Below, piece after piece: positions 42,021 through 46,595 of a stretch of DNA of 64,000 bases (position 1 is its first letter; each line of letters starts with the position of its first letter). The DNA is from Pseudomonas entomophila (GTDB lineage: Bacteria; Pseudomonadota; Gammaproteobacteria; Pseudomonadales; Pseudomonadaceae): positions 930,001-994,000 of the forward strand of contig NZ_CP063832.1 of the NCBI RefSeq assembly GCF_023277925.1. The letters run 5' to 3'. The position numbers were made by a program, and so were the translations under genes. A model generated the notes under the pieces. The model made no database searches. It saw only the letters and a list, made by a program, of their open reading frames with translations, and was not told the DNA's origin.

Positions 42021-42692
42021 TCAGTCGTCGCGACCCATGATGCCGAACAGCTGCAGCAGGCTGACGAACAGGTTGTAGATCGATACATACAGGCTGATGG
42101 TTGCCATGATGTAGTTGCGCTCGCCGCCGTGGATGATCGCGCTGGTCTGGAACAGGATGCAGACCGACGAGAACAGCACAAAACCAGCGCTGATCGCCAG
42201 TTGCAGGCCACTGATCTGGAAGAAGAAGCTGGCCACCACGGCGCCCAGCAGGACGAAGAAGCCGGCGGTGATGAAGCCGCTGAGGAAGCTCATGTCCTTG
42301 CGGGTGATCAACACGTAGGCGGACAGGCCACCGAACACCAGCGCGGTCATGGCGAATGCCGAGCTGACCACTTCGGCGCCACCGGCCATACCCAGGTAGC
42401 GGTTGAGGATAGGGCCAAGGATGAAGCCCATGAAACCGGTGAGGGCGAACGTGGATACCAGGCCCCAGGCCGAGTCACGCAGCTTGTTGGTGAGGAAGAA
42501 CAGGCCGTAGAAGCCGATCAGCACCACGAAGATGTTCGGGTAGCCAACACGCATCTGCTGGGCGACGAACGCCATGATGCCGCTGAAGGCGAGGGTGAGC
42601 GCCAGCAGGCTGTACGTGTTGCGCAGGACCTTGCTGACCTCCTGCTGCTCGGCCTGCTGGCCGTGTTGGATGGCGTAATCCTGTTCGCGCAT
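42021..42692 (-). CDS. yccA: Bax-inhibitor-1/YccA family inner-membrane protein
   Basis: 223 residues with seven membrane segments and the family's C-terminal stretch ISLYVSIYNLFVSLLQLFG. YccA in E. coli binds and modulates the FtsH protease; BI-1 relatives are Ca2+-leak proteins. Starts MREQDYAIQHGQQAEQQE at 42692. The tus operon, ybiB and yccA run in the same direction. Confidence 0.93.
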   Translation of the reverse strand: MREQDYAIQHGQQAEQQEVSKVLRNTYSLLALTLAFSGIMAFVAQQMRVGYPNIFVVLIGFYGLFFLTNKLRDSAWGLVSTFALTGFMGFILGPILNRYLGMAGGAEVVSSAFAMTALVFGGLSAYVLITRKDMSFLSGFITAGFFVLLGAVVASFFFQISGLQLAISAGFVLFSSVCILFQTSAIIHGGERNYIMATISLYVSIYNLFVSLLQLFGIMGRDD

Positions 42693-42793
42693 GGCGCACT
42701 CCTTTGGTGTGAAACCGGTGGGTTGGGACCCGTGGTATTGGAACGTATGGGCTGAAGCATACCAGAGCTGCCACAACCCGCGACACAGAGAGT

Positions 42794-42840: not shown

Positions 42841-42928
42841 GGAAGCGTGGCCGAGTGGTTTAAGGCAACGGTCTTGAAAACCGTCGATGGGCAACTATCC
42901 TAGAGTTCGAATCTCTACGCTTCCGCCA
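42841..42928 (+). tRNA. tRNA-Ser (anticodon UGA)
   Basis: 88 bases including an encoded CCA. Acceptor GGAAGCG pairs with CGCTTCC; anticodon stem CGGTC/GACGG-type around CTTGAAA gives anticodon TGA; a long class II variable arm and the T loop GTTCGAATC follow. The integrase relic immediately downstream suggests the 3' end has served as an attachment site. Confidence 0.95.
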
Positions 42929-43051: not shown

Positions 43052-43330
43052 TTACGCCAAGGCTCCAACGCAGCGATAGACTCGCTCTGTAGTATCGCCC
43101 TTGGCCTCGATGTCGTCCCTCCTCATCACCAGCACGTCCGCTGGACGCTGGCCCGTCAGATACGTCAGGTCCATGGCGTCTTTCAGTTCACCCACCGCTT
43201 TGCATACACCGCGTTCCAGATCGCACCATTCGCGTAGAAATCCCGCGGTACTTCCTTGTTCTGACGTGCGCCTTGGCACGGGTTCCATGAGCGGTCCTTG
43301 ATGGGCTGGACTTCGAGATCGCCCTGAAAG
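43052..43330 (-). pseudogene. Tyrosine-recombinase (phage integrase) relic, frameshifted
   Basis: On the minus strand one frame reads NPCQGARQNKEVPRDFYANG then AIWNAVYAK (about 43290-43196), the linker to the catalytic domain of phage integrases. The next frame continues AVGELKDAMDLTYLTGQRPAD then VLVMRRDDI (about 43195-43080), which contains the TGQR catalytic-arginine motif. The two halves join only across a one-base shift near 43196. The sequence breaks off soon after, with no HxxR or Tyr motif. Thus only a middle fragment survives, pointing toward the tRNA. Confidence 0.75.
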
Positions 43331-43585
43331 TAAAGGTACGGTCTGATCTCGCTCGTTAATTGCTCGATGCGCTTTCATAGAAAGGATCGGGCAGTTAACG
43401 TCAGGCTGACATGGCGCTGGTTGTTCAACTGCAATGCTGGGCCAGGAAGGCGTCTGCTTCCGACTTGATCGTGTCCCTGGATGCTGTACCAATGTTCAGG
43501 ATTGCTGGAGTGGTTTGCGTGGGTATGGGATCTCGCGCCGAGACGCATCTAGAATATTGATAGGCGGGGAGTCGTGAGGTGAGTC
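43331..43585. other. Degenerate stretch between integrase relic and small membrane protein
   Basis: No recognisable gene; minus-strand frames are open in places and may be further eroded phage sequence. Confidence 0.4.
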
Positions 43586-43768: not shown

Positions 43769-44020
43769 TCACGCCGATATCTGCTCAAGATGCTCTTGCA
43801 GCATCTGGCGACGGCTCGCAGTTGGAAGTTGCGCAATGGCACATGGCCGGTATCGCTTGACCCAACACGGCCATTTGCTGTTGAATGCTCGCCCTAAAGC
43901 CCCCGCAACCTTTCCCCCCAAGTGGTGAAGCCAGTGCCCTACGCCAGCCAACACGCCTGATACCGACGACGGTCCATCGTGCCTGATGGCTGCCCGCGCC
44001 CGTGCGCGGCGGCGCTTCAT
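43769..44020 (-). CDS. Doubtful small hypothetical protein
   Basis: 83 codons from an ATG at 44020 (MKRRRARARAAIRHDG...), preceded by AGGCAGG about 9 bases upstream. The middle GVLAGVGHWLHHLGGKVAG is amphipathic and the end RRQMLQEHLEQISA looks helical, but no family is recognised and the region may be non-coding. Otherwise the 307 bases between 43768 and 44076 hold only the presumed promoter of the RNA-ligase operon. Confidence 0.25.
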   Translation of the reverse strand: MKRRRARARAAIRHDGPSSVSGVLAGVGHWLHHLGGKVAGALGRAFNSKWPCWVKRYRPCAIAQLPTASRRQMLQEHLEQISA

Positions 44021-44075
44021 CGCTGTGCCTGCCTGATCCTGTCGTCGGTTTTTCCCTATTTGAATGGAGAAACCC

Positions 44076-44936
44076 ATGAACATGGATTTTCGTGCCGACC
44101 TGCACACCCTAGAACTACTCAAGTACCCCCGCACGCCCCACCTAGAAGGTTCGCGCCTTCAAGATGGTGATACCGACGCAGGTCAGGTTCGCTATGCCTC
44201 CCTGGCCGGCCAATGGCTAGTAGTGGAGGAAAAGCTCGACGGCGCCAACGCTGGCATCAGCTTCACCGAAGGCGGTGAGCTGCGCCTGCAGTCGCGCGGT
44301 CACTACCTCAGCGGCGGCGGCCGCGAGCGCCAGTTCAACCTGTTCAAACAGTGGGCCGTGGCCCACGAGCGCTGGTTGCTGGAGCGCCTCGAAGACCGTT
44401 TCGTGCTGTATGGCGAGTGGCTGCACAAGAAGCACTCGGTGTTTTACGACCACTTGCCGCATTACTTCTGCGAGTTCGACATCTGGGACCGCGCCACAGG
44501 GCTGTTCCTGTCCACCGCGGCGCGCCGAAGCTTGCTCGAGGGCGGGCCGGTGCTGTCGGTGCCGGTGTTGTACGAGGGCCCGGCGCCGCGCCGTTATGCG
44601 GACCTGATGGCGCTGGTCAGTGATTCGCTGGCCAAGACCGTACGGTGGCGAGCGGTGTTCGAGCAGGTAGTGCGCCGCGAAGGCCTCGACCTGGCACGCG
44701 CCTGGCGCCAGTGCGACTGCTCCAGCCGCATGGAGGGGCTGTACCTGAAGCTCGAGGACGAGCGGCAGACCCTGGGGCGGCTCAAATGGGTTCGCCAGGA
44801 CTTCGTCCAGGCCATCCTCGATGCCGACCAGCACCATGCCAACCAACCGTTCATCCCCAATCAACTGGCCGACGGCGTGGACCTGTACGCACCTTGCCTG
44901 TCCATGGACTGGCAAGGCCCGCGCCGCGGTTACTGA
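44076..44936 (+). CDS. ATP-dependent RNA ligase family protein
   Basis: 286 residues with the covalent nucleotidyltransferase motifs of RNA ligases: motif I EEKLDGAN with nucleophile K53, RGHYLSGGG (Ia), LYGEWLHKKH (III), FCEFDIWD (IIIa), EGLYLKLED (IV) and the lysine of LKWVR (V). It should join 5'-phosphate to 3'-OH RNA ends through an AMP intermediate, most like the compact RNA_ligase (PF09414/Rnl5-like) group. The ATG at 44076 has GGAG 6 bases upstream; the ATG at 44064 does not. The HD-Pnk gene follows after 14 bases. Confidence 0.85.
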   Translation: MNMDFRADLHTLELLKYPRTPHLEGSRLQDGDTDAGQVRYASLAGQWLVVEEKLDGANAGISFTEGGELRLQSRGHYLSGGGRERQFNLFKQWAVAHERWLLERLEDRFVLYGEWLHKKHSVFYDHLPHYFCEFDIWDRATGLFLSTAARRSLLEGGPVLSVPVLYEGPAPRRYADLMALVSDSLAKTVRWRAVFEQVVRREGLDLARAWRQCDCSSRMEGLYLKLEDERQTLGRLKWVRQDFVQAILDADQHHANQPFIPNQLADGVDLYAPCLSMDWQGPRRGY

Positions 44937-44950
44937 AGGAGCATCCCGAA

Positions 44951-46096
44951 ATGGATATTCGACACCTGCAACAACTGGTGCCCGAGCCTGGGCACGACAT
45001 GGACGCCACGGCCTGCCTGGCGGCGATCCCGGCCCTGGCGCGCCTGGCCGAGACACCGCAGGACCCGACCTACCACGCGGAGGGCGATGTGTGGATACAC
45101 ACCCGCCTGGTGGTTGAGGCACTGCTGGCACAACCCGCTTATCAGCAGGCCACTGCCGAGCAACGCCTGGTGCTGTTCTTCGCCGCGCTGTTGCATGACA
45201 TCGCCAAACCCGACACCACGGTGATCGACCCGGAAACCGGGCGCATCGGCCAGCCCGGCCACTCGCGTCGGGGCGCGGTGGATGCCCGGCTGCTGTTATG
45301 GCGAGCTGGCGTGCCGTTCGAGCTGCGCGAGCAGATCTGCCGCATCATCGCCGTACACCAGTTGCCGTTCTTTGCATTGCAGGGCGATCGCAGCGGACGC
45401 AGTGCGGAGTTTCTGTTGCACAAGCTGTCGTGGGAGCTACCGGTGTGGATGCTCTGCGCGGTGGCCGAAGCCGACATGCAAGGCCGCCATTACGCTGGCA
45501 AGGCCGACGTACTCACCGCCATCGAGCTGTGGAAGGAGCTGGCGGCCGAGGAGGGCTGCCTGCACGGGCCGCGGGCGTTCGCCGACGACTACACGCGCAT
45601 CCAGTACCTGCGCGGTGCGCGGGTGCACCCCGATTACTCGCTGCACGAGCCGGAGGGCTCGCAGGTTGTGATGCTCTCGGGCCTGCCGGCCAGCGGCAAG
45701 GATACCTGGACCGCGCGGCATCATCCGGATCTGCCGGTGGTGTCGTTCGACGATGCGCGTCAGGCTTTGGGTTTGCGCCATGGGCAGAACGAGGGGGCCG
45801 CCGCGCACTACGCCATCGACCGGGCCAAGGCCCTGTTGCGTGAGCAGCGGCCGTTCGTGTGGAACTCGACGCACCTGTCGGCGCAGATGCGCAGCCGTAC
45901 CCTGGACTTGCTCTACGGTTACGGTGCCCAGGTGGAGATCGTCTACCTGGAGCGCCCCGAGGCCGAGATCATGCGGCGCAACCAGCGGCGTGACACGTCG
46001 CTGCGCAACGACGATATCCGCCGCATGCTGTTCAAGTGGGAGGTGCCGTTACCGACCGAGGCGCACCGGGTCATGTATCAGGCCGTGACGGTTTGA
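44951..46096 (+). CDS. HD phosphohydrolase-polynucleotide kinase fusion (HD-Pnk type RNA end-healing enzyme)
   Basis: 381 residues in two parts. Residues about 45-200 are an HD domain with H50, H82-D83 (LLHDIAKP), H104, H136 and D175 all present. Residues about 238-381 are a P-loop kinase: GLPASGKDTW (244-253), SFDDARQALG, NSTHLSAQMR and an arginine-rich lid RRNQRRDTSLR, as in T4 Pnk-type 5'-OH kinases. The same fusion in Runella (HD-Pnk) removes 2',3'-phosphates with the HD domain and phosphorylates 5'-OH ends. With the upstream ligase it supplies healing and sealing. Ribosome site AAGGAG 9 bases before the ATG. Confidence 0.85.
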   Translation: MDIRHLQQLVPEPGHDMDATACLAAIPALARLAETPQDPTYHAEGDVWIHTRLVVEALLAQPAYQQATAEQRLVLFFAALLHDIAKPDTTVIDPETGRIGQPGHSRRGAVDARLLLWRAGVPFELREQICRIIAVHQLPFFALQGDRSGRSAEFLLHKLSWELPVWMLCAVAEADMQGRHYAGKADVLTAIELWKELAAEEGCLHGPRAFADDYTRIQYLRGARVHPDYSLHEPEGSQVVMLSGLPASGKDTWTARHHPDLPVVSFDDARQALGLRHGQNEGAAAHYAIDRAKALLREQRPFVWNSTHLSAQMRSRTLDLLYGYGAQVEIVYLERPEAEIMRRNQRRDTSLRNDDIRRMLFKWEVPLPTEAHRVMYQAVTV

Positions 46097-46104
46097 TCGG
46101 GCCC

Positions 46105-46145
46105 GCATCACGAAAGCCCCGGCGCGTCGGGCTTTCGCGATGCCA
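46105..46145 (+). terminator. Hairpin after the RNA-repair operon
   Basis: GCATCACGAAAGCCC ... GGGCTTTCGCGATGC forms a long stem; the T-run is weak, so it may be a terminator or a stabilising hairpin for both convergent genes. Confidence 0.6.
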
Positions 46146-46166: not shown

Positions 46167-46595
46167 TCAATCCAGCACGTTGTGCAGGACCTCATAGATC
46201 ACGCCCGTGGCAATCGTCACCAGCAGCAGGTCTGCCCCGGCCTGTCGCCATTCATAGCCGTCGTAATGCGGAAGTCTCCCCAACAGCCGGCTATCCAGCT
46301 TCTTGGCAATCCCCGGCGGAAGTGGTTTGCCCCGTTCAAGATTCTTTTGCACTCCTGGCGGTAGCGCCGAGCCGCGGCTCCAGTACTCGCGGTTGTCATC
46401 GAGTACGACCCGCACCCCACCCAGGTCCACGGATGGGCCGCCATGCCAGTCGCTACCGTTCTGTGAATGGCCCTGGCCGCCATGCGGGTTACCCTTGTCA
46501 TGGCCCTTGCCTTTGCCTGGATCCGCCAGCAAGGTAGGGCTCGCGCAAACAAGGGCCAGGCTCAATGCTGCCGTGAACAGCGATTCAAGCTTCAT
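46167..46595 (-). CDS. CigR/RcnB-like secreted protein
   Basis: 142 residues. Sec signal peptide (ends about residue 24 before DPGKGKGHDKG), then a Gly/His/Lys-rich segment, then the CigR-type region RGSALPPGVQKNLERGKPLPPGIA, and a hydrophobic C-terminal stretch (LLLVTIATGVIYEVL). CigR is an inner-membrane anti-virulence factor in Salmonella; the role here is unknown. The tandem LPPGxxKxLxxG pattern supports the assignment. Confidence 0.75.
   Translation of the reverse strand: MKLESLFTAALSLALVCASPTLLADPGKGKGHDKGNPHGGQGHSQNGSDWHGGPSVDLGGVRVVLDDNREYWSRGSALPPGVQKNLERGKPLPPGIAKKLDSRLLGRLPHYDGYEWRQAGADLLLVTIATGVIYEVLHNVLD

Follow-up and report, generated by a model that had tools for sequence, protein, structure and literature searches.

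A conserved leader with a short open reading frame precedes an RNA ligase–HD-Pnk cassette in Pseudomonas entomophila and may act as a ribosome-gated switch

A stretch of 64,000 nucleotides (nt) from Pseudomonas entomophila (assembly GCF_023277925.1, contig NZ_CP063832.1, positions 930,001 to 994,000 of the forward strand; hereafter, the window) carries a two-gene RNA-repair cassette, in which the gene of an ATP-dependent RNA ligase is followed by that of HD-Pnk, a fusion of an HD phosphohydrolase with a P-loop polynucleotide kinase. The enzymes and their pairing are already known; the new part is the leader upstream of them, which bears a very short open reading frame (mini-ORF) and the two arms of a long-range stem designated P1. 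The features of the locus are collected in Table 1. The first-pass annotation of this DNA was confined to positions 44076..46096 and left the trigger of the cassette open; it overlooked the leader lying just ahead of the ligase, from which more can be learned than from any other part of the locus.

Table 1. Features of the cassette locus (positions in the window; aa, amino acids)
Feature	Position	Strand	Basis
tRNA-Ser (TGA), upstream of the slot	42841..42928	+	Confirmed in the sequence
Promoter-like pair TTGACC - 18 nt - TTGAAT	43857..43886	+	Alignment of 28 Pseudomonas upstream regions
Conserved leader RNA, rich in C and poor in G at the 5′ end (putative transcript start)	43893..44062	+	Alignments
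Mini-ORF GTG CCC TAC GCC AGC CAA CAC GCC TGA (MPYASQHA), GGTGA ahead	43934..43960	+	72 of 78 leaders; codon bias
Stem P1, 5′ arm (ACCGACGACGG), 1 nt past the mini-ORF stop	43962..43972	+	Leader comparison, covariation
Stem P1, 3′ arm (CTGTCGTCGGT); T-run at 44049-44053	44039..44049	+	Leader comparison; RNAalifold on 23 Pseudomonas leaders
RNA ligase, ATP-dependent (PF09414), 286 aa; other possible start 44064	44076..44936	+	Pfam, motifs, alignment, structure model
HD-Pnk, 381 aa: N-terminal HD phosphohydrolase, C-terminal P-loop 5′-OH polynucleotide kinase	44951..46096	+	Pfam, alignment, structure model
Inverted repeat CGAAAGCCC/GGGCTTTCG past the operon, possible terminator	46111..46137		Read by eye from the sequence

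The sequence supports the presence of two intact predicted end-healing and end-sealing enzymes in one apparent operon, and the spacer between their genes is 14 nt, as had been noted in the first-pass annotation. The ligase start at 44076 is favoured over the second in-frame ATG at 44064: GGAG is found 6 nt upstream, and this ATG is retained in 28 aligned Pseudomonas leaders. The ligase contains the motifs EEKLDGAN (its Lys is residue 57 when counted from 44064 and K53 when counted from 44076), RMEGLYLK, and LGRLKWVR, and matches Pfam RNA_ligase PF09414 with an E-value of 1.7e-35 and 123.1 bits (cut-off 27). Residues K57, E118, E137, E224, and K241 are invariant among 23 aligned sequences. A solved ligase structure was not found from the ligase sequence alone. 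When the AlphaFold2 (AF2) model was used (predicted local distance difference test, pLDDT, 72; below 50 for the first 37 residues), all 15 Foldseek matches at E≤0.001 were RNA ligases (T4 Rnl2, Naegleria, archaeal), the best being T4 RNA ligase 2 and the Naegleria RNA ligase, but the TMq was only 0.37-0.42. HD-Pnk matches Pfam HD (E 2.8e-5, 24.8 bits, cut-off 22) and AAA_33 (E 3e-19, 70.2 bits, cut-off 27), and the kinase half of its AF2 model (pLDDT 93.4) resembles bacterial, mammalian, and T4 Pnk. Its residues H50, H82, D83, H104, D175, and the P-loop G249-K250 are invariant among 21 aligned sequences, while H136 is kept in at least 90%. Thus, the fusion of an HD domain to a P-loop kinase was read correctly down to the residue numbers, and the catalytic residues of both enzymes withstand alignment. 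At E≤1e-3, no PADLOC profile matches either of the two proteins.

It has been reported that the Deinococcus HD-Pnk DRB0098 belongs to a radiation-induced operon together with a DNA-ligase-like protein and phosphorylates 5′-OH DNA (PMC1997131), which would suggest that DNA strand breaks, and not damaged RNAs, are what the cassette repairs. However, the Deinococcus relative met in this analysis is only 28-29% identical, the partner here is an RNA_ligase-family protein with RNA ligases as its best structural matches, and a translation-linked leader, described below, suits RNA damage. The DNA-repair explanation is therefore considered to have little probability.

Upstream of the ligase, about 150 nt are strongly conserved among 28 Pseudomonas cassette upstream regions, and the homology between cassettes located at different sites begins abruptly at the promoter-like TTGAC. 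A sigma-70 scan did not call the promoter-like pair of the window, and a looser scan was positive in 30 of 72 leaders, the window not included; leaders from Achromobacter and Burkholderia carry TTGACA-17/18-TAGGAT/TAGCAT at the equivalent place. Across genera, the leader follows one plan: a Shine-Dalgarno (SD)-like site precedes an ORF of 7-9 codons that mostly starts with GTG, and the stop of this ORF has the arm [N]CCGACGAC within a few nucleotides of it (the stop-to-arm distance in classical leaders is -1 to 3 nt), with the complement of the arm, GTCGTCGG[N], situated about 50-210 nt downstream, often followed by T's and then by the ligase gene.

Merging of identical leaders gave 103, of which 78 precede a ligase at least 55% identical; three loci (L133, L150, L170) were left out because of unusable upstream sequence. 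A relaxed rule, written after the data had been seen (SD-like context, 6-9 codons, and [C/T]GAC or CGTCGAC at most 12 nt from the stop), finds the mini-ORF and the arm in 72 of the 78 leaders versus 73 of 7800 first-order shuffles. Applied upstream of other long ORFs of the same loci, it is positive in 21 of 875 cases, and in 13 of these 21 nested ORFs led back to the cassette leader. In a second set of 16 loci, 4 repeat known leaders, and 10 of the 12 new ones conform to the relaxed rule, the exceptions being L247 and L249. A stricter pattern, fixed beforehand, occurred in 0 of 7200 shuffles. When the same pattern was sought before ligases lacking HD-Pnk, it was found in 0 of 20, and a leader at those genes was rejected. 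Finally, in a survey of 398 Pseudomonas genomes, one per species, the Pseudomonas form of the pattern was detected in 23, namely, all 22 genomes with the cassette and one (G207) where no ligase was found, with 3 hits for the reversed-pattern control. Stand-alone copies of the Pseudomonas form were thus rejected, one extra genome standing against three for the control.

No Rfam family accounts for the leader: at the gathering score there was no match either in the window or at six further loci, and with the threshold set at E≤10 the window leader had two matches far under the cut-off (E 1.9 and 5.3). Nor was a description of such a leader or attenuator met in the open-licence literature, as judged from titles and the beginnings of abstracts. 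Two other candidates were rejected as well. A longer leader peptide (e.g., MAARARARRRFIAVPA after the mini-ORF) has a frame that is broken between clades in an alignment inspected by eye, and a guanidine-II-type ACGR hairpin at ACCGACGACGGU was suggested by a resemblance only, while the loop base in question changes instead together with the far arm.

The leader contains what looks like a short translated ORF because G is nearly absent from the third codon position only. In 45 distinct mini-ORFs, G occupies positions 1, 2, and 3 in 61, 75, and 8 of 324 codons, respectively (chi-square p 5e-14), while in the ligase genes of the same loci it makes up 37% of third positions. The bias persists when each of 21 hand-chosen groups is represented by a single mini-ORF (26, 33, and 6 of 153; p 2.6e-5). 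The 5′ flanks of the mini-ORFs have no G periodicity (p 0.80), and the 3′ flanks have a weak one (0.30, 0.26, 0.21; p 0.006). In other words, NNG codons are avoided and NNC/NNU codons are preferred. No two of the 45 mini-ORFs encode the same peptide; 34 have 8 codons, 10 have 9, and 1 has 7, with GTG as the start in 33, and among close Pseudomonas mini-ORFs all 12 single-base codon differences are non-synonymous (0 synonymous). Thus, the reading frame is retained with its start, stop, and length, as is the type of codon, and the peptide is not conserved. Since the ORF length and position are kept while the peptide is not, the mini-ORF would be a generic sensor not tuned to one amino acid; the same finding speaks against an arrest peptide and against an attenuator that reads a single amino acid. 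As to composition, acidic residues, Gly, Trp, and Lys are nearly missing from the 45 peptides (1 D, 0 E, 1 G, 0 W, 2 K).

The same codon-position bias, together with the maintained frame and the arm abutting the stop codon, bears on another explanation, namely, that the leader is a protein-binding or substrate RNA and that one of the two enzymes regulates itself by binding the P1-closed form or by cleaving and resealing it, with the mini-ORF being secondary. Near-fixation of the core of the P1 arms in sequence, while the 50-210 nt enclosed between them vary, is what would be expected of a recognised stem, and the Pseudomonas form occurs without the cassette in only one of 398 genomes. Nevertheless, the features of the mini-ORF point to translation, and this self-regulatory explanation appears improbable.

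Stem P1 is supported by two-sided changes in its arms, A-T/G-C at pair 1, C-G/T-A at pair 3, and G-C/A-T at pair 7, found among 18 distinct arm pairs from 56 loci, a count that left out 16 of 72 leaders without the motif and took as the 3′ partner the best match chosen by a script. P1 is also the stem that RNAalifold selects on 23 Pseudomonas leaders, the covariation term being small (-0.7 kcal/mol). In 47 of 72 loci, no more than 1 of 30 downstream shuffles attains the P1 score. When a ribosome is placed at the start codon in the model, the P1 probability is at least 0.77 in 34 of 35 leaders having a stem of at least 7 base pairs (bp); with the initiating ribosome modelled, it is at least 0.75 in 33 of 45 distinct leaders versus 17 of 135 with the downstream part shuffled. 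The leader could, of course, have no regulatory function and be carried along as the native promoter region of the cassette, since short cassettes travel with their upstream DNA. However, the mini-ORF, its stop, and both arms persist across genera with compensatory changes while the rest has diverged, which makes a passive leader highly improbable.

A ribosome standing at the mini-ORF stop codon would necessarily cover the P1 arm. The most economical interpretation of the sequence data would be that a ribosome paused late on the mini-ORF prevents P1 and permits expression. We therefore propose, with chances that we judge to be about even, that the cassette is governed by a ribosome-gated leader, in which a ribosome paused on the mini-ORF blocks P1 and the repair genes are switched on. 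Transcription would start just upstream of the leader. A ribosome finishing the mini-ORF quickly would leave the arm free, P1 would form, and the transcript would be cut short or remain silent. A ribosome stalled at the last codons or at the stop, owing to a cut tRNA or to its own damage, would instead cover the arm, so that P1 could not form and the ligase and HD-Pnk would be made. HD-Pnk would then convert 2′,3′-cyclic-phosphate/5′-OH ends to 3′-OH/5′-phosphate ones, the ligase would seal the healed ends, translation would recover, and the switch would close. Broken tRNA or ribosomes might thus induce their own repair. It is from what the operon encodes that RNA damage is put forward as the natural trigger.

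As to the output, occlusion of the ribosome-binding site (RBS) is less likely because in most classical leaders 21-32 nt separate the end of the 3′ arm of P1 from the estimated start of the ligase. An intrinsic terminator at the T-run would suit Pseudomonas, Burkholderia, and most Achromobacter, but the loop is long, and some genera have no T's. In the 8 nt after the arm, the mean T count is 3.8 versus 1.9 expected (72 loci, many of them from Pseudomonas). Rho loading sites are C-rich and G-poor, and so is the 5′ leader (C 0.38 and G 0.19 versus 0.30 and 0.29 further upstream), whereby Rho may participate. This leads to an alternative in which the switch is likewise gated by the ribosome, but the signal is ordinary translation stress, such as ribosome-targeting antibiotics or amino-acid shortage, and the output goes via Rho or via translation of the ligase. 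The leader composition and the weak U-tracts in several genera agree with it, and toiL has been proposed to act through RBS occlusion and Rho (PMC12121999). At the same time, the SD sequence of the ligase itself lies outside P1, given the same 21-32 nt, and an output via Rho or translation would leave the repeated T-run after the arm unexplained. We regard this alternative as unlikely, though less so than the others considered here.

A number of observations weigh against the ribosome-gated reading with termination at P1, in addition to the after-the-fact wording of the relaxed rule and the selection made in the covariation count. The strict pattern matched only 3 of the 16 loci in the second set, 6 of the 78 close leaders lack the arrangement (L139, L145, L151, L153, L247, L249), and 0 of 25 distant cassettes (ligase below 55% identity) conform even to the relaxed rule. 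The outer pairs of P1 are non-standard in 2 (pair 1), 4 (pair 8), and 6 (pair 9) of the 18 arm pairs. In 25 of 72 loci, the stem is not clearly over the shuffles, and the Comamonadaceae-type stems, mostly of 5-7 bp, are individually unconvincing. In the window leader without a ribosome, the P1 probability is 0.03, because a competing fold that hides the mini-ORF start wins; the overall folding z-score of this leader is -1.16, and 27 of 200 shuffles fold at least as well. The P1 loop of about 50-210 nt is unlike that of a compact intrinsic terminator, a terminator scan calls none in the window leader, and several genera (Aquabacterium, Chitinimonas, Janthinobacterium) have only a weak T-run or none. 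Finally, the freely varying peptides have neither a run of regulatory codons nor a conserved arrest sequence, and the nature of the signal is a guess.

In a broader and more tentative form, the proposal is that such leaders constitute a new class of cis-acting elements, generic sensors of translation damage with 7-9 codons of the NNC/NNU type and indifference to the encoded peptide, through which cut tRNAs or damaged ribosomes in gamma- and betaproteobacteria would activate the very operon that repairs them, so that the feedback loop is closed. We consider it possible, yet short of probable, that the whole of this picture is correct.

The cassette is best explained, on the grounds of sequence, as a mobile two-enzyme operon for RNA repair. 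The ligase search was positive in 30 of the 398 Pseudomonas genomes, and in 22 of the 30 HD-Pnk is adjacent on the same strand; the other 8 have a different ligase (32-41% identical) and no HD-Pnk within about 8 kb (less at contig ends). The pair is therefore accessory and not fixed in all Pseudomonas, in agreement with the accessory slot named in the first-pass annotation, and the 22 cassettes occupy several different sites. Certain genomes share a site with each other, for example, the window with L076 (both sides) and with L075 (downstream), L083 with L086, and L079, L080, L084, and L087. A third cassette gene was sought by clustering crudely called neighbours by sequence, with no screen for nuclease domains; no family recurs beside all Pseudomonas cassettes, and such a gene was rejected. 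Of 72,556 plasmid records, 43 contain a relative of HD-Pnk, and two of these are P. aeruginosa plasmids that carry the pair; 1 of 50,697 phage records contains a relative (31.5% identical). Among viral contigs, 0 of 19 stretches with the pattern encode a relative, this search covering close relatives only.

The order of ligase and then HD-Pnk on one strand was counted by hand in 68 of 80 named genome loci (the best 80 of at least 532 confirmed ones), from Pseudomonas to cyanobacteria and Nannocystis. This order agrees with the published description of HD-Pnk operons, and the pair is a further case of a known operon type. In two Nannocystis loci (L163, L169), a 6-codon ORF (MPVSAR / MFVSVR) follows a GAGG-type site upstream of the ligase; its stop is followed by GCGCC, and GGCGC is found near the ligase. 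The leader plan may thus extend to Myxococcota with different letters.

Several loci depart from the common arrangement. Eight Pseudomonas loci (L067-L074) and L250-L260 have a second, shorter PF09414-like ligase without HD-Pnk (frames of 236-269 aa in Pseudomonas). In 5 of the 8 Pseudomonas loci, it is directly preceded by a member of one ATPase family (AAA_15/AAA_21/DUF3696 in one that was checked), and the two genes possibly make up a separate defence-like pair. The Pseudomonas megaplasmids pMPPla107 (L033) and pBASL58 (L095) carry HD-Pnk without a recognised ligase adjacent; the gene upstream of it has no Pfam match at E≤0.01, and in pMPPla107 an aminoacyl-tRNA hydrolase is annotated nearby. 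In L100 (CP136011.1), the order is reversed, with HD-Pnk followed by a longer RNA_ligase protein of 360 aa.

The slot itself had been described as lying next to a tRNA and an integrase relic. The tRNA-Ser is real, while the relic is not confirmed: for ORF 43052-43492 (minus strand), searches of Pfam, NCBIfam, and PHROG gave nothing at E≤1e-3. Its DNA partly recurs in other Pseudomonas genomes, and it reads like a frameshifted or decayed piece of a tyrosine recombinase (DLTYLTGQRPADVLVMRRDDI) next to the tRNA-Ser. The gene that precedes the slot (42021-42776) is matched in all 35 same-genus relatives, the match mostly extending as far as the tRNA-Ser and in no case running on into the cassette; G001 and G007 have the cassette on another contig. 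Directly downstream of the cassette, 46167-46595 (minus strand) encodes a CigR-family protein (NCBIfam NF040487, 161.3 bits). A methyltransferase was not among four other window ORFs run against Pfam, the neighbours of the cassette having been given no Hen1-directed screen. The earlier remark that no RtcB, RtcR, or archease gene is near the cassette needs a correction at the genome level, since the source genome has two RtcB genes away from the cassette.

According to PMC4411300, the in vivo substrates are unknown, and such damage is hard to recreate under laboratory conditions. The leader bears on two questions, namely, which agents damage RNA in nature and on what occasions the bacterial Pnk/Rnl repair systems act. 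If the proposal is true, a leader that reads ribosome stalling would provide a direct and cheap reporter assay for inducing toxins, phages, and drugs, and a widespread class of leaders with an unusual codon rule would be added to those described.

Among the closest known systems is the HD-Pnk of Runella slithyformis, which reportedly represents the HD-Pnk/polynucleotide-ligase type of operon. The cassette is similar to the Runella-type operons in having an HD domain followed by a P-loop kinase, a similar size, and an adjacent ligase gene, and differs in the leader mini-ORF, which recurs here in gamma- and betaproteobacteria and of which no description for those operons was met in the open-licence literature. 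In Pnk/Rnl repair systems, the phosphatase is a metallophosphoesterase, whereas here it is an HD domain. Kinase and ligase modules are common to both, and the Pnk/Rnl systems heal and seal ribotoxin-cut tRNA in vitro (PMC4411300). The RtcR-RtcB/RtcA operon is also an RNA-repair operon and is reported to be switched on by damaged tRNA (PMC7790460). There, sensing is performed by a protein activator, while here it would be performed by leader RNA with a mini-ORF, and the ligase belongs to another family.

Like leader-peptide attenuators, the leader has a short, apparently translated ORF, as judged by sequence only. In contrast to them, it shows neither a series of regulatory codons nor an arrest peptide that is conserved, and in place of a compact intrinsic terminator with a U-run, none of which was called in the window, there are a long-range stem and a variable T-run. 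We know of no sequence relation of the leader to toiL or whiB7, whose target genes are different; besides, the mini-ORFs here have almost the same length throughout, and their stop codon directly adjoins the stem. The similarity is in the logic: the E. coli toiL (toiL-topAI) and actinobacterial whiB7 short upstream ORFs precede stress operons and respond to several translation stresses, and in the case of toiL a stalled ribosome alters the downstream structure (PMC12121999), as is proposed here for the mini-ORF and P1.

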